DNA of 15,437 nt from Candidatus Raymondbacteria bacterium RIFOXYA2_FULL_49_16 (GTDB lineage: Bacteria; Fibrobacterota; OXYB2-FULL-49-7; XYB2-FULL-49-35), in contig MFYT01000016.1 of NCBI GenBank assembly GCA_001789205.1, positions 1 through 15,437 of the forward strand, given 5' to 3'. Position numbers and translations under genes: made by a program. This document shows, one piece after another, positions 6,758 through 15,437 of the stretch. Positions within the stretch are counted from its first letter, which is position 1; each line of letters opens with the position of its first letter. The notes under the pieces are model-generated. The model searched no databases, was not told the DNA's origin, and was given only the letters and a program-made list of their open reading frames with translations.

Positions 6758-8470
6758 TTATACCTGTGTTTTGTGATCACGCTCCTTTTTGGCCCATAGC
6801 GCCGGACTTGTTCCGAAATGTTTCCTGAACAGATGATGAAAATTCACTTCATCCTCGATCCCAACCATTTCCGCGATTTCCCGGATCTTAAACCGGCCCG
6901 CTTTTAGCAGAGAGCGCGATTCCGCGAGCCTTCCTTCGATCTGATACGCTTTTGGCGTTTTCCCGAAATATTCCCTGAATTTATTTATGAAGTGAACATA
7001 ACTGATGCCGCACTTTTCCGCCAGACTTTTAAAATTGATTTTTCTGAAATAATTCTGCTGAATATAGTCCCTGACCTCTTCCATGGACCTAACCAGCGTG
7101 TTTTGAACGTCCTTGAACGGCAGTACTGGAACAGGTGAAAAACTGAGCGCATATCCCGGTTCGTTGATGCAGCAAATGGGATCCAGGACAAACTGGAACA
7201 ATTTTCCCGGTACTGTACTGAATGAAACAAAACGCTGCCGCTTGCTTTCCTTCTCAAAGTCATACGCTGAGGGACGCCCTTTTATCGTAAGGGTCTTTAT
7301 GCGTATACTCCCTTTCCACACATACATATACAAGTGGGACGCCAGGAAACCGAATACCGGATTCGGATCAACGTACCGGATACCCTCTTTTCCGTTGATT
7401 GTAACGGAAAAGACAGGACCAATACGTCTTATGGCAAGCAGAAACGAAGATTCGTTGACCCCATCCGTCTCGGCCCGTACCATAGGAGAGGAATTACGGT
7501 AAAAATGGCTTCGCACGGTTTCATCGAATGAACAATCCACATGGTATCCGTGGTCGAAATGACGGCGCTCTGTTCCGAAAAAGGGGCGGCCCAGGGCCAA
7601 GGTAATGTCGCTGCCCTTTTCCACGCTGCCGTTGATCTCTATGGAAAGGTCCTGGTTGGGAAAATTAATGGCCTTTGAGATTACACAGTATGGCTGATGA
7701 GGAGACCGTAACCTGGTTGAGCGTAGTAGGAGAGAAGGGCCAGACCTGTTTATCCGTATTCCCGGATTTTTAACAAGGAAACGGGACCCCTTAGTGCTGT
7801 TTTCAGGCACAATGGAAACGATATCTTTCCAGCGCTTCCTGGTCCTCGGAGAAGTACTAGGAACTCCGGCAAAGTCCGAAATAAAAGGGTTTGGATTCCT
7901 GCATCCTTCATCAAGAAAATCGATAATAGGCGCGCCCATGACCTTTGAATCATCGAACAGGTTTAATAAAGACAAAAATTGCGCATTATACGAGTAAATT
8001 TTCAATTGGTCATTAAGAACCACGATTGGCTGCTTTGCCTGACGGAACAGACCGATAAGCCATTGGACAACCGGCGATTCCAGGGTTATGCCATGGGGCA
8101 CAAGGGTCAGGAGCAGATAGGGTGTTTTTTGTATTGTCACCGGATTTCCATAGGAGATATAAAAAATTCCCCGGGACAGCACAGAGGCCGGGTTTTCTGT
8201 TTTCTTTTCCTGTGTACGTGTTATATAAAGGTTGGCGGGACATGTTGGGTGTTTTGTAAAAAATGCTTGGTCCAAGCAGTCGTGGTTGTATTTTGCTATG
8301 GGCATGAACACAGCGTCCAGTTTTTTTCCACAGATATCATGTTCAACTTTGGTCAGCCGTTGCAGGTTGTCCGAAACCGCCGCAATGGTCCCATTGGATC
8401 CAATAAGCATATGACCAAAATGGGAATCAGAGAAAATCTGCCGGATTATCCTGTTTTGTATGGGTTTCAT
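6758..8470 (-). CDS. AraC-family regulator with PAS-like and concanavalin-A-like sensor regions
   Basis: 570 residues. The C-terminal ~105 residues (466-570) are a full AraC/XylS DNA-binding domain with two helix-turn-helix units: FKSLAEKCGISYVHFINKFREYFG, then IREIAEMVGIEDEVNFHHLFRKHFGTSP. The N-terminus holds two PAS-like segments (~10-125 and ~135-200, including QPIVVLNDQLKIYSYNAQF). Residues ~262-398 resemble a concanavalin-A-like beta-sandwich: DLSIEING, ITLALG, GYHVDCSF, then LLAIRRIGPVFSVTINGKEGI...DPNPV and IRIKTLTIKG. This resembles the 'fragile sugar-binding sandwich' pattern of LamG/DUF1080-like domains. No signal peptide or membrane segment is visible, so it is cytoplasmic, a one-component sensor. 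It is divergent from the 8586 operon and convergent with the LamG gene. The ATG at 8470 has only a weak ribosome site. It probably controls the neighbouring operon and itself. Confidence 0.9.
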   Translation of the reverse strand: MKPIQNRIIRQIFSDSHFGHMLIGSNGTIAAVSDNLQRLTKVEHDICGKKLDAVFMPIAKYNHDCLDQAFFTKHPTCPANLYITRTQEKKTENPASVLSRGIFYISYGNPVTIQKTPYLLLTLVPHGITLESPVVQWLIGLFRQAKQPIVVLNDQLKIYSYNAQFLSLLNLFDDSKVMGAPIIDFLDEGCRNPNPFISDFAGVPSTSPRTRKRWKDIVSIVPENSTKGSRFLVKNPGIRINRSGPSLLLRSTRLRSPHQPYCVISKAINFPNQDLSIEINGSVEKGSDITLALGRPFFGTERRHFDHGYHVDCSFDETVRSHFYRNSSPMVRAETDGVNESSFLLAIRRIGPVFSVTINGKEGIRYVDPNPVFGFLASHLYMYVWKGSIRIKTLTIKGRPSAYDFEKESKRQRFVSFSTVPGKLFQFVLDPICCINEPGYALSFSPVPVLPFKDVQNTLVRSMEEVRDYIQQNYFRKINFKSLAEKCGISYVHFINKFREYFGKTPKAYQIEGRLAESRSLLKAGRFKIREIAEMVGIEDEVNFHHLFRKHFGTSPALWAKKERDHKTQV

Positions 8471-8585: not shown

Positions 8586-10763
8586 ATGAGAAGACTTCAG
8601 GCGCTGTTTTTTTCATTATTAATTGTATGTACCATTGTTTTCCCGGAAACACCCGCAAATCTCACTGCCATGGTGCGCTCAGGCCAGGTTTTTCTGACCT
8701 GGAGCGAAGTAACAGGCGCCAATCAATATATTATTTACAGTTCAACATCTCCCATTACCGCCGGTTATTTAACATCGGGCAATGTACGTATAAAAGTCCT
8801 GCAGGGCTCGGCAGGCAACAAACAACTTGAACTATATACTGGCGCGGGGAGCTTTTTTGATACCTATGGTTGTATTCCCCTGCCGGATTTTTCCCGCAAT
8901 GTCATCACACCGCTCAATCCTTCAACTTCAGGCCTGGCCACGGAAGTGCCTGCGGGAACAGGCATGATGGTTTTTACAACTCATACTTCTGGAAACTACT
9001 ATTACGCGGTGACCGCGGTTACTGGCGGCGTTGAGGATAAAACATTAAACAATGGCAATAACATAGGTCCCATTGCCGAGACCGTAGCTGATCCGGAACC
9101 AGTGCTTATCTGGCAGTCAGACACCATGTGCGCCCGGCTCTATCTGCAGTATACTGACGTGGATTCTTTCAATCCCACGCAGGCAGGCACCTACGCGTGG
9201 CCCTATTGGGTAGGCGTCAAAAAGAACTATAACTCCACCACGGACAGGGGGAACCTGCACCTTAAACTCGATGGGTATTCCGGTGTAATCCGGGGATGGA
9301 ATTATGCGATATATAACAATAATGGTATATCAGTAAATCCACACGAGAATGGGAACTGGTGGTTCGGCTGGAGCAAAACCTTCACGTACGACACATCCAA
9401 AGCTGCGTATGGCGCCAGTGACGCAGCAGTGACAACAGGGCCTGTATATAATTTTGTACAGGCCAGGATCATGGCGTTTTTCAAGTGGATGATCTACGTT
9501 GAACCGTATTACGCTTCCCGGATTGATACGAACTGGATCACCGTGGAGGGCGGTTCCATGGGCGGCGGCGGAACGCTTATGATGATTCAGAATTATCCGG
9601 ACTTCTTTGCTTCGGGCCAGGCGAAAGTCCCGCCGACCAATTATCTTGAAACAGGCTGGACCTGGTATACCAACTGCCGGGCAAGCTGGGGAACCGGAGA
9701 TAATGACAATATTAAAGTCCATTTTACCGGCTGGCGCTCCGAATGGGCGGAAACCCGTTTCGGCGGCATGGCCTGCCACCAATGGCTCAACCTTGAAAAC
9801 TTCTATATCCCTAATACCGAAGACGTGGAGCTCCCATACCTCGGCATCTGTTCAGGCGGACAGGATGGATCAGTCAACTGGCCCCAACAAGGAAGAAATT
9901 ATTATAACGGTCTTGAAGCGACCCGCCGCGGTTGGAGCGGCCAACTCAGCGGCGCATCAGGCCATTTTTGTGAAGGCGACGGTAACTGGATGCTAAGCGA
10001 TAAGGCGATACGAAAAAACGAGGCGTTTCCCGCGTTTAACAACACCCGAAAAAGCATGTTGCTCCCATTACCCGAGGAACCGCTCGATTCCAATTACACC
10101 ATGAACCGCCACTTCATCTGGGCTGTGGAACATTATCAAGTTGGAGGCGTATTCGGCCATACGGATGAAACCAACCGCTTTGATATGGTGATCGCTTCAT
10201 ACCGCGCGGGATATGAACCCATGATAGGCGACGATACAGCGGACGTCACTCTGCGCAGGCTTCAACGTTTCGCGGCCACTCCCTACGCTGACTATCATTA
10301 TAAGAACACTACTGTTCATGACACAACTGTCATTTACCAATCAGGTACTATGACGGCCGATAGCTTCGGTCTGATTACTATTCCCAATTTATATGTGCGT
10401 GCCGGAAGCCGTGATACGGGTGGATGCCGGCTCATCGTGGCCCCCGACATACCCGTTACCGAATCCGAGGCCGCACCTTGTGGTTTCCGTAACGCCTGGA
10501 TAGAAGCAGTTCCAAACCCGTTCAACCCAACCACTTCTATCACGGTTATTGGTACCAGAAACACGATTGCCAACAGACAATCCATGCATATTTATGATTT
10601 TAGGGGAAGGCTCATTGAAATACTGTTGCCTGTCGCAAATTCCGGACATCAGGGATGGGTGCACTTTTTGTGGAATGCTGGCAAGAATCCCTCAGGATTA
10701 TATATCGCGAGGATTTATTTAGACGGCAGAACGCTCTCGAAAAAACTTTTGCTGCAAAAATAA
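8586..10763 (+). CDS. Exported alpha/beta-hydrolase-fold serine hydrolase with FnIII and T9SS sorting domain (copy A)
   Basis: 725 residues. ATG 8586 follows AAGGGG (8574-8579) and opens a signal peptide (~1-20). Residues ~21-155 look like a fibronectin III domain with an internal insert (VFLTWSEVTGANQYIIYSSTSP ... YYYAVTAVTGGVED). The catalytic part follows. GGSMGGGG supplies a nucleophile-elbow serine (Ser324, codon at 9555), and GGQDGSVNW (Asp427) and GASGHF (His460) complete a plausible Ser-Asp-His triad, all conserved in the paralog at 10775. This points to an esterase or peptidase-like hydrolase; the substrate is unknown and I cannot assign a named family. An accessory beta domain (LRRLQRF...LITIPNLYV) and a sorting domain (PNPFNP at 10512-10529, KLLLQK tail) follow. 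It is the first gene of the operon controlled from 8479-8547. Confidence 0.9.
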   Translation: MRRLQALFFSLLIVCTIVFPETPANLTAMVRSGQVFLTWSEVTGANQYIIYSSTSPITAGYLTSGNVRIKVLQGSAGNKQLELYTGAGSFFDTYGCIPLPDFSRNVITPLNPSTSGLATEVPAGTGMMVFTTHTSGNYYYAVTAVTGGVEDKTLNNGNNIGPIAETVADPEPVLIWQSDTMCARLYLQYTDVDSFNPTQAGTYAWPYWVGVKKNYNSTTDRGNLHLKLDGYSGVIRGWNYAIYNNNGISVNPHENGNWWFGWSKTFTYDTSKAAYGASDAAVTTGPVYNFVQARIMAFFKWMIYVEPYYASRIDTNWITVEGGSMGGGGTLMMIQNYPDFFASGQAKVPPTNYLETGWTWYTNCRASWGTGDNDNIKVHFTGWRSEWAETRFGGMACHQWLNLENFYIPNTEDVELPYLGICSGGQDGSVNWPQQGRNYYNGLEATRRGWSGQLSGASGHFCEGDGNWMLSDKAIRKNEAFPAFNNTRKSMLLPLPEEPLDSNYTMNRHFIWAVEHYQVGGVFGHTDETNRFDMVIASYRAGYEPMIGDDTADVTLRRLQRFAATPYADYHYKNTTVHDTTVIYQSGTMTADSFGLITIPNLYVRAGSRDTGGCRLIVAPDIPVTESEAAPCGFRNAWIEAVPNPFNPTTSITVIGTRNTIANRQSMHIYDFRGRLIEILLPVANSGHQGWVHFLWNAGKNPSGLYIARIYLDGRTLSKKLLLQK

Positions 10764-10774
10764 GGAGGAGAAGA

Positions 10775-12937
10775 ATGAAACTATCTTATTTGATCTTCTT
10801 GGTTTTTTCCATAATGACGCTTGTTTCCGGCGCAGTGCCCTCTAATTTTGATGTATTTTTCCGTTCAGGGCAGGCATTCCTTACCTGGGATGAAGCGGCT
10901 GGCGGTGAAAAATACATTATTTACCGCAGCACGTCCCCGATGACAACCGCTGATCTGACATTGGAAAACAAAAGGTTTGAAGTTGCGCAGGGATCCGCTC
11001 ATAATGACATACTGGACCATCTTTCGCAGATTTCCACGTTTTCAAATTTAACGCCCCCCTGCGTCTTCTCAAGAAACGTAACGGAACCGCTGGATCCGGC
11101 CGCGACAGGCAATACGGAGCAGCTGCCGGAAGGTAAGAACATGATCGTGTTGACCACTCATGTAAACGGGACCTATTACTATACCGTAACCGCTGTTACA
11201 GGCGGTATTGAGGATAAAAGCGTGGATAGCGGCAACAGTGCAGGACCTGTTGCGGAAACCGTTGCAGACCCCGCTCCTCTCTTAATCTGGCAGTCGAACT
11301 ATAAGACTGCACGCATCTATTTGCAGTATATCGATGTTGACACATTTAATTTGTCCTATCGGTACCAGGAATTTGCCTTTCCATACTGGGTAGGAGTAAA
11401 CAGACGTTATAATTCAACTTCAGGAGGCTGTAATCTTGCATTGTACCTGAATGGTGGCACACAGGACCTTGGGGGCATAAATGATTCCATACTAGATAAT
11501 ATGGCGAACAGGTATATCGATATAAAAGTGATTCCTGAAGGCGACAACACATACTGGTTTGGCTTTAGCCAGACGTATAATTACCGCTTGGGTAATGTTG
11601 TGGACGCAGGCCCCACAGTGAATTTTACGCAGGCGCGGGTGATGAATTTTCTGAAGTATCTTATTTTCGAGGACGCTTATTTTTCAGCGCGGATCGATAC
11701 CAATCGCATTTTTCTCAAGGGGAATTCCAATGGTTCCGGCGGTACCTTGCAGTTTGCGTATAATTATCCCGATTTCTTCGCTTATTCATTTTCCTATTCC
11801 GGCGCCACGGACTATTTTGACGAGGGGGTATATGATCATCGCGGCTATTTCAGTAAGTTATGGGGCGCCTACGACGATACTGCCATGACGGTCGCTTTTA
11901 CTGGATGGCGCAGCGAATGGCTGAACGGGAAATTCAAAGGCATGACCGTCAATGATTGGTTTAATCAGGAAGAAAAACTTCTGTTGAGCCCCGGCGATGA
12001 CATGCCGTGGATCGCCTATGGTTTTGGAGCAAAGGATTCAACCGTTGACTGGCCTTCACAGGGACGGAATTATTTTACCAACTTGGAAAAAAGTAGGCGG
12101 GGATTTAATGGGGGCGTGCGGGGCGCATATGGCCATGGCGGGTGCGATGTAATAGCCTCGGCGCTTCCGCAATTGACCACAATACGGAAAAACAACTCCT
12201 TCCCCGCGTTTTCCAATGTGGCGAGCAACACGGATCTTCCCTTTCCTGATGTCCCGGAAGAGATTGATTTCCCCTTGAATAATCATTTTATATGGAGCAC
12301 GCCCCATTATAAGGCAGGCGGCGTGCAGGAGCAGATTGATGAACTCAACAGATACGAGATTGTCCTGGCATCGTGGAAGTCTGACTATATGGATCCTGTT
12401 GGTGATGATACTGCCGACATAACGCCCAGAAGGCTTCAGAATTTCAAGGTAATCCCTGGACAAGATTACATTGTAAAGAATACGGCTGTCAATGACACTG
12501 TCATGATCTATCAGATCGATACCATTGCCGCTGATGAATACGGGCTTGTCACCTTCCCGGGCTTCCTGGTGAAATCAGGCGACCAGAACACCGGCGGCAG
12601 CCGTTTCATCATGGCTCCTGTTGTTCCGGTTTCAGAGGTAACAGCCCAATCATTAAAGGGCGATGGCATGGCCATTGCAGTTGCGCCCAATCCGTTTAAT
12701 CCAGCTACGGAAATAACAATTACGAATTTCAAATTACGAATTACGAATCCTGAAATTAAAATATTCAACATTAAAGGGGAATTGGTTTCTGATTTATCCA
12801 ATTCGATTCGTAATTCCAAATTCGTAATTCGTAATTTTTTTGTTTGGGACGCTTCAAACCAGCCAAGCGGGGTCTATGTCATCAAGGCGACGATGGGGAA
12901 CAGGATATTGTCGAAAAAAGTCATGCTGATGAAATAA
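10775..12937 (+). CDS. Exported alpha/beta-hydrolase-fold serine hydrolase with FnIII and T9SS sorting domain (copy B)
   Basis: 720 residues. The start is ATG 10775: GGAGGAG (10764-10770) lies just upstream, abutting the previous stop, and the signal peptide begins there (~1-20, VSGA cut). It is collinear with the preceding hydrolase throughout: FnIII-like start (AFLTWDEAAGGEKYIIYRSTSP), GNSNGSGGT elbow (Ser318, codon at 11726), AKDSTVDWPSQGRNYF (Asp421) and AYGHGG (His454). The accessory domain (PRRLQNF...LVTFPGFLV) also occurs in the partial gene at the window start. The elbow differs (NSNGS against GSMGG), suggesting divergence in specificity. The sorting domain (PNPFNP at 12686-12703, KVMLMK tail) carries two AT-rich palindromic repeat arms translated in frame as ITNFKLRITN and SIRNSKFVIRNFF. 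Gaps of 11 and 20 bases to its neighbours indicate an operon. Confidence 0.9.
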   Translation: MKLSYLIFLVFSIMTLVSGAVPSNFDVFFRSGQAFLTWDEAAGGEKYIIYRSTSPMTTADLTLENKRFEVAQGSAHNDILDHLSQISTFSNLTPPCVFSRNVTEPLDPAATGNTEQLPEGKNMIVLTTHVNGTYYYTVTAVTGGIEDKSVDSGNSAGPVAETVADPAPLLIWQSNYKTARIYLQYIDVDTFNLSYRYQEFAFPYWVGVNRRYNSTSGGCNLALYLNGGTQDLGGINDSILDNMANRYIDIKVIPEGDNTYWFGFSQTYNYRLGNVVDAGPTVNFTQARVMNFLKYLIFEDAYFSARIDTNRIFLKGNSNGSGGTLQFAYNYPDFFAYSFSYSGATDYFDEGVYDHRGYFSKLWGAYDDTAMTVAFTGWRSEWLNGKFKGMTVNDWFNQEEKLLLSPGDDMPWIAYGFGAKDSTVDWPSQGRNYFTNLEKSRRGFNGGVRGAYGHGGCDVIASALPQLTTIRKNNSFPAFSNVASNTDLPFPDVPEEIDFPLNNHFIWSTPHYKAGGVQEQIDELNRYEIVLASWKSDYMDPVGDDTADITPRRLQNFKVIPGQDYIVKNTAVNDTVMIYQIDTIAADEYGLVTFPGFLVKSGDQNTGGSRFIMAPVVPVSEVTAQSLKGDGMAIAVAPNPFNPATEITITNFKLRITNPEIKIFNIKGELVSDLSNSIRNSKFVIRNFFVWDASNQPSGVYVIKATMGNRILSKKVMLMK
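12719..12835. repeat. AT-rich palindromic repeat pair inside a coding sequence
   Basis: The left arm (12719-12748) is built from ATTACGA units, with tandem period 7, and the right arm (12801-12835) is the inverted counterpart (TTCGTAAT units). The arms share ATTACGAATT at their outer ends and a further inverted GAATTACGAAT. The roughly 50 bases between them encode ordinary sorting-domain sequence (IKIFNIKGELVSD). Paralogous sorting domains lack the arm-encoded residues. Confidence 0.75.
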
Positions 12938-14472: not shown

Positions 14473-15437
14473 ATGAAATGTATTACATATATCATATCAT
14501 TCCTTTTCATGTTTTCATTCTGGTGCCCTGCACAGGAACCAGCTGTTGATTGGACAAAGGAAATCGCAAAGGATAGTCTGCTTTCCAAGTCGGGCGACCA
14601 GTCCGGCATCCGGTCGCACAGTATATGCGAAACCAGCGACCACGGTTATGCAATGACCGGCCATTGCTGCTGCTCACATTGCAACGGTGATTTATATATT
14701 GTCCGTACCGACTCTGCGGGGAAAATCCTGTGGACGCAGAGATATGACGACCGGGGAAGGGACGAGGTCGGCAACTGCATACGGGAAACTTTTGACCGCG
14801 GCTTCATTATTGCCGGTGTTTCCGAAGATCCGGCCAGCAGCCGGGCAGATGGATACGTGATTAAAACCGATTCTCTGGGCGCAGTGGTCTGGGAGAAAAT
14901 AGCAGGCGATACATCCTATGGCCGCCTCGAAGTCCTTTATGCTGTCCAGGAAACATTTGACCATGGTTTTATCACTGCCGGATATGCGTTCTCTAATAAT
15001 AACAGCGAAGCCTATTATGTAAAATTGGATGCAAACGGCAATGTGCTATGGTCAAAAACATGCGGCGGGCCAAGGAACGATTGGGTGCGATGGATTGAAC
15101 AGACAAACGACAGCGGATATATCATGTGCGGCGCTACATATTCATTCGGCGCCGGCGGGTCTGATGTGTACGTGGTCCGTACAAACGCCGCAGGAGACAC
15201 GTTATGGACAAAAACATTCGGTGGCAGTGAAGTCAACGACGGTGCATATTGCGTCCGCCAGACAAACGACAATGGGTTCATCATGACAGGGCAGACCAAT
15301 GATTATACCGATATCTACCTTGTCCGGCTCGATGTGCAGGGAGACCTGGTATGGGAAAAAGCCATTGGCAGCGACACCACTTCTGAATGTGGCCGTACCA
15401 TACGCCAGACGCCAGACAATGGTTTTCTCATTGGCGG
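14473..15437 (+). CDS. Exported tandem-repeat (beta-propeller-like) protein, 5' part
   Basis: The frame opens with ATG 14473, preceded by AAGGGG (14462-14467) that overlaps the previous stop, and stays open to the window end (at least 321 codons). A signal peptide covers about residues 1-20. Then come repeats of roughly 50-55 residues with the pattern G-x-D/N...(I/V)(R/E)QT.D.G(F/Y)I..G.......D.Y.V(R/K).(D/N)..G...W.K..GG. This pattern is common in FCB-group secreted proteins and probably forms propeller blades. One unusual element is a His/Cys cluster, HCCCSHC at residues 64-70 (14662-14682), in the first repeat, which could bind metal. The C-terminus, where a sorting domain would be expected, is outside the window. 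It is the fourth gene of the operon; no enzymatic motif is seen. Confidence 0.85.
   Translation, partial: MKCITYIISFLFMFSFWCPAQEPAVDWTKEIAKDSLLSKSGDQSGIRSHSICETSDHGYAMTGHCCCSHCNGDLYIVRTDSAGKILWTQRYDDRGRDEVGNCIRETFDRGFIIAGVSEDPASSRADGYVIKTDSLGAVVWEKIAGDTSYGRLEVLYAVQETFDHGFITAGYAFSNNNSEAYYVKLDANGNVLWSKTCGGPRNDWVRWIEQTNDSGYIMCGATYSFGAGGSDVYVVRTNAAGDTLWTKTFGGSEVNDGAYCVRQTNDNGFIMTGQTNDYTDIYLVRLDVQGDLVWEKAIGSDTTSECGRTIRQTPDNGFLIG

Follow-up and report, generated by a model that had tools for sequence, protein, structure and literature searches.

Inverted 7-bp repeats translated in frame within the sorting domains of a Candidatus Raymondbacteria genome

RESULTS

A secreted hydrolase with inverted repeat arms in its sorting domain

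The window, that is, the whole 15,437-nucleotide stretch of contig MFYT01000016.1 (Candidatus Raymondbacteria bacterium RIFOXYA2_FULL_49_16) that was analysed, encodes a secreted hydrolase, copy B, whose C-terminal sorting domain (SD) contains two inverted arms of 7-bp repeat DNA. The features that concern us, with the basis for each, are the following.

10775 to 12937, + strand: hydrolase copy B, secreted, with a C-terminal sorting domain (open reading frame; TIGR04183 match)
12598 to 12679, + strand: linker, where identity with the closest paralog collapses (DNA identity)
12680 to 12934, + strand: T9SS type A sorting domain, 85 amino acids (profiles, AlphaFold2, PDB folds)
12715 to 12749, + strand: arm 1, (AATTACG)n (inverted pair I1; lag-7 run 12711-12748)
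12750 to 12804, + strand: core between the arms (PEIKIFNIKGELVSDLSN), coinherited with them (nearest-neighbour test)
12805 to 12839, + strand: arm 2, inverted (CGTAATT)n (inverted pair; AlphaFold2 placement)
12840 to 12937, + strand: domain tail (87% DNA identity to C9:117403-119559)

The long open reading frame of copy B opens at 10655 and gene A ends at 10763; a start at 10775, with the signal peptide MKLSYLIFLVFSIM and 3' of gene A, is likelier than one at 10655. The protein has 17 matches in its genome, itself included. In the window (8586-12937) and in the genome at large (G000), these hydrolases form a large paralog family, whose other members show 27-82% protein identity and differ in their SDs. 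At the C-terminus of copy B, both profiles for the T9SS type A sorting domain score above their curated cutoffs, TIGR04183 over residues 676-757 (E 1.7e-7, 31.1 bits compared to 23) and Pfam PF18962 with 28.9 bits compared to 27. AlphaFold2 models of 29 SDs of the genome (pLDDT 80) support this assignment: the predicted fold is the Ig-like beta-sandwich of T9SS C-terminal domains, and the closest PDB folds found by Foldseek, 8glk, 7pq4, and 8qb1, are all T9SS C-terminal domains (probability 0.99-1.00, with E-values of 0.002-0.01, each above 0.001). Sequence and predicted fold agree on the host domain, and the repeat-bearing protein probably stays a normal sorting domain.

The two arms, each 35 nt long and 55 nt apart, are 86% complementary, with a longest perfect stretch of 18 nt. 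A preliminary description of this DNA had reported in-frame inverted arms in the SD, an expected long mRNA stem near the C-terminus, and paralogous SDs in the window without these residues, and each of these observations holds: the arms are translated as ITNFKLRITN (arm 1) and IRNSKFVIRN (arm 2), the paralogous SDs lack them, and the RNA of 12700-12860 is predicted to fold at −38.5 kcal/mol compared to a mean of −24.6 for shuffled sequences (z −4.1), with none of 200 shuffles as good. Three AATTACG units (21 nt) read as ITNYELR on one strand; the inverted run brings up TAA once per 21 nt and must therefore vary to stay open.

In the AlphaFold2 model of the domain, arm 1 corresponds to the loop that joins strand 9-13 to strand 25-30, and most of arm 2 to the loop preceding strand 53-57; these predicted surface loops flank a core beta-hairpin on either side. 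The preliminary description had taken both arms for insertions, which is correct only for part of arm 2. Loop 1 has a median length of 19 amino acids in repeat-bearing and repeat-free SDs alike (p 0.43), whereas loop 2 is longer in repeat-bearing SDs (24 compared to 20 amino acids, p 0.001). Arm 1 replaces native loop length, and arm 2 adds about 4 residues.

The AATTACG family across the genome

The genome-wide search for the arm sequence that had been proposed as a check gave 65 matches to AATTACGAATTACGAAT with up to 3 mismatches in the 5.43-Mb genome, compared to 2 for a reversed control. The AATTACG unit, with up to 2 mismatches, occurs in 18 places, 15 of them SDs, where it occupies the same two positions of the domain: arm 1 begins directly behind NPFNPxTxI, and the WDAS motif follows shortly after the end of arm 2. 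Two further places immediately follow stop codons (C35:11155 and C64:61537), and the last, the sole coding copy outside SDs at this mismatch level, is read in frame as RNYKLRITNFKS in the linker of an oxidoreductase-like protein (L012, G000:C64:123706-123729). Own arms of an AATTACG-family domain match each other only slightly better than they match the arms of other members (12.8 compared to 11.9, p 0.10), a difference too small to establish local copying within this family.

Several arms carry a second palindromic insert, GC-rich (CCGCTTCGCCTGCGAAGCGAGGCGAGC), inside the heptamer (AATTAC/GAATT). It is about 27-30 nt long, is always in frame, being translated as PASPAKRGER or SPRVAAGEAGN, and is found at G000:C25:3244-3552, at C23:166367-166678, and in other SD arms (L019, L020, L022-L024). 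In two SDs, those of C25 and C23:166k, it is mirrored across both arms.

Period and orientation of the repeats

We collected 169 SDs from the genome and cut 164 of them into head, loop 1, core, loop 2, and tail; counts other than those from pattern searches refer to a sample of about 0.7 Mb around SDs. Among loci picked for their SDs and not for repeats (669 kb), runs of lag 7 with a score of at least 12 number 16 in SDs, compared to none in 586 kb of other coding sequence and none in 44 kb of intergenic sequence. Every other lag from 4 to 13 gives 0-1 runs in SDs and lag 14 gives 9, so that only 7 and its multiple rise above other periods. Outside the AATTACG type, lag-7 runs with a score of at least 9 are present in 5.4% of the SD loops and in none of 1119 body segments or 132 tails. 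The units are unrelated to each other and include, among others, AATTACG, AAGGTGA, GGCAGCT, TGGCAGT, GCTGATT, CTAAAGT, CGTGAGT, and AGAAGTC. The last gene of the window (15398-15417) and a paralog (G000:C77:44-63) share a short 7-bp run (ACGCCAG) outside an SD.

The two loops of an SD are also more complementary to each other than mispaired loops are. Across the 164 SDs, the mean score is 7.68 compared to 6.41, with 25 SDs scoring at least 10 where 4.75 are expected. Once the 33 AATTACG-type SDs are removed, the remaining 131 still give 6.91 compared to 6.27 (0 of 20000 permutations), with 10 SDs at or above that score compared to 2.2 expected. In the direct orientation, the same 131 SDs show no excess (6.39 compared to 6.32); the complementarity within a locus is thus inverted and not direct, as expected of template switching at quasipalindromes. 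Strong inverted repeats (score of at least 18) occur 5 times in SDs and nowhere else in 715 kb, a sample that includes some loci chosen for repeat hits.

Arms and core follow each other more than the flanks do

The paralog closest to copy B (C3:14843-16990) has 89% DNA identity to it over 1.8 kb (10775-12597), which falls to about 42% afterwards. Identity thus ends before the SD, and the SD of this paralog is unrelated to that of the window, indicating that SDs are swapped as modules. A finer mosaic is seen with C9:117403-119559, which has the linker, NPFNP head, and tail in common with the window, along with the beginning of the gene that follows; its middle is different, with AAGGTGA arms that are again inverted.

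For 22 repeat-bearing SDs, we asked whether the nearest neighbour bears repeats as well. It does for 19 of the 22 when core residues are compared, for 5 with tail residues, and for 6 with head residues; neither of the latter two differs from the roughly 3 obtained with shuffled labels. Tail DNA places a repeat-bearing neighbour in 9 of 22 cases (p 0.008), and the flanks are therefore linked to the arms to some degree. In these comparisons, arms and core form one block and the flanks mostly another. The preliminary description had left open whether the arms came as a pair or separately: they are inherited together with the core, yet single-armed SDs exist in this genome and in other phyla.

Other genomes and phyla

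A profile built from seven repeat-bearing or related SDs finds 32 matches in this genome and a single weak one among 166 other genomes of the phylum. Protein matches to hydrolase copy B in those genomes cover only the sorting domain, with no same-family orthologs among the genomes compared. Three other genomes of the phylum carry their 7-bp arrays between genes (3, 5, and 3 arrays) and have none within their 76 SDs; in several relatives, AATTACG hairpins immediately follow stop codons. AATTACG-type arrays between genes, some of them hairpins, were seen at L038 and L050 (both G002), L043, L048, and L055. At L038 and L050, a variant unit in one arm has its counterpart in the other, which suggests local inverted copying. 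The contig of L297 (G058:C126:1-9000) holds several different heptamer arrays, among them an intergenic one of about 200 bp (7623-7831; CAAGTTG/CAAGACA units) that adjoins AATTCGT arrays.

Beyond the phylum, 3 of 80 SDs have a single 7-bp array in or beside an SD loop, and SD loops elsewhere therefore accept such repeats. The single arrays at L172 and L182 (Ignavibacteriaceae; MAG labelled Armatimonadetes), with the units GTCAATG and TTCAATA, lie in SD loop 1 or 2. In the SDs of other phyla, the excess of complementarity is weak (p 0.009) and does not stand out clearly against the direct control. Among the genomes compared, inverted pairs of many kinds are found only in this one.

DISCUSSION

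In this study, we followed a pair of inverted, translated repeat arms from one hydrolase gene to the sorting domains of a whole genome. The explanation that we prefer, at a probability of roughly 0.45, is that the arms consist of a 7-bp tandem repeat of local origin together with its inverted counterpart, made at the DNA level in two protein loops that tolerate nearly any sequence. Slippage-type copying would first extend a short 7-mer repeat within a single SD loop; a switch of strands across the hairpin would then place an inverted copy in the loop beyond the core, and would also keep the arms complementary. The arm-core-arm block may afterwards move, without head and tail, among the genome's many SD genes within short recombination tracts, an exchange that is supported by the asymmetry of the nearest-neighbour test and by one clear mosaic locus. 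Purifying selection, finally, would keep the frame and the core, so that only loop-compatible versions survive. The data show the location of the repeats, their period, their orientation bias, and their linkage to the core; from these we infer a mechanism, slippage and template switching, and the neutrality of the arms. Slippage does not explain why the repeats are nearly confined to SDs here, while three relatives keep theirs between genes.

The linkage of arms and core can be read as the trace of such recombination tracts, but it could also reflect an old SD subfamily whose head and tail have lost their signal, which is the main rival reading. In its full form, this rival invokes descent only: a single ancestral SD gained the inverted arms, and its descendants, the repeat-bearing subfamily, multiplied as genes or whole C-terminal modules were duplicated. 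The grouping by core residues speaks for it, as do the swapping of whole SDs seen with the closest paralog and the restriction of the repeat-bearing SD type to this genome alone among 167 of the phylum. Yet tail and head residues fail to group the repeat-bearing SDs, with tail DNA doing so weakly, the same architecture recurs with unrelated 7-mers, and the window and C9:117403 combine common flanks with different arms. Taking these points together, we regard descent alone as possible but rather unlikely.

We further speculate, as an unlikely reading, that in this lineage the SD undergoes diversification that is programmed or strongly biased, in which 7-bp hairpin repeats flanking the core serve as exchange points for arm-core-arm cassettes and themselves turn over among unrelated sequences. 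If this were true, cassettes would be swapped among well over a hundred genes for secreted proteins.

The arms might instead be under selection as an RNA (or DNA) hairpin close to the 3' end of genes for secreted proteins, acting, for example, on mRNA stability or by pausing translation before synthesis of the sorting domain is finished. Compared to synonymous recodings, the arm-core-arm region is indeed more structured with the repeat (z −1.56) than without it (z −0.59; p 4e-7), while the tail control stays at −0.08, and the same heptamers form hairpins directly after stop codons, in relatives and in two places here. However, repeat DNA predicts this excess equally, so that it fits functionless repeats as well as a selected hairpin. 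Moreover, most SDs have no strong hairpin, and the recent duplicates C105:816/C45:819 lose their arm matches. No Rfam family fits: none matches at its gathering score, and the only hits, to miRNA precursor models, lie far below their gathering scores, as any AU-rich stem would give. A selected hairpin is in our view distinctly unlikely, and the mRNA hairpin is probably a by-product.

Palindromes in protein-coding sequence are usually explained as inserted mobile elements. An element of the RPE, REP, or MITE type, inserted in frame with a transposase acting in trans, would account for the copy in the unrelated oxidoreductase linker (C64:123706) and for the intergenic copies, and the genome encodes Y1 (IS200-like) transposases. 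None of these, and none of the reverse transcriptases also found in the genome, is tied to SDs. The preliminary description had likened the arms to Rickettsia palindromic elements, which are 105-146 bp long, have terminal inverted repeats, and occur in many unrelated proteins (Ogata et al. 2000; PMC2229807). The two are alike in that palindromic repeat DNA is translated in frame within genes and is also found between them. We find no fixed-length consensus element with its own spacer but a 7-bp unit of varying sequence, with variable spacers and native domain sequence as the hairpin loop, and unrelated 7-mers behave alike in other SDs; arm 1 adds no length, and arm 2 adds about 4 residues. Nor are the repeats spread over many unrelated proteins and intergenic sites: AATTACG has only 18 places, of which 15 are in one domain family at its two fixed loops, 1 is in another gene, and 2 are intergenic. 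By unit, spacer, and distribution of sites, the arms are not elements of the Rickettsia type, and a mobile element in general is improbable. Finally, protein-level convergence, with loops favouring ITN/RN residues and DNA complementarity being incidental, would suit residues in loops that adjoin conserved strands but is very improbable, as different 7-mers give different residues, and a period of 7 nt, which is not a codon period, and an excess confined to the inverted orientation contradict any codon- or protein-based cause.

Several other known systems come close to the repeats described here. Heptameric tandem repeats, reported to be over-represented in bacteria but little studied (PMC4692102), include GGGAATC in Xanthomonas and GGGGATT in Nostoc (PMC4692102) and TAACTGA in Beggiatoaceae (PMC4679880). 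They share with ours the 7-bp tandem unit, the inverted pairs (in Xanthomonas), and the proposal of polymerase slippage, but are mainly intergenic, whereas ours lie in coding sequence, within SD loops only, and comprise many unrelated units in a single genome. Template-switch mutation at quasipalindromes, described in Escherichia coli (PMC7202029), yeast (PMC8604942), and RNA hairpins (PMC8794818), is known to homogenise imperfect inverted repeats, coding DNA included; the known cases are short single events, whereas here the process would recur in a single domain family, in combination with a 7-bp repeat. Coding palindromes kept in functional sequence are also found in Nematomorpha mitochondria, where perfect arms of up to 284 bp encode conserved residues of organelle genes (PMC6649704), unlike the imperfect 7-mer arms in loops described here. 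In the literature searched, we found no paper on these repeats or peptides, and none that ascribes repeat arms or a 7-bp period to T9SS type A sorting domains (TIGR04183, PF18962).

At the same two sites of a single domain family, at least eight unrelated 7-mers show a common layout; this points to a process that acts on DNA shape and period and not on a given sequence. As this genome carries the target domain in well over a hundred copies, it can be tested whether protein loops are remodelled by slippage and strand switching. Repeat DNA appears to be reshaping the same part of a protein over and over.
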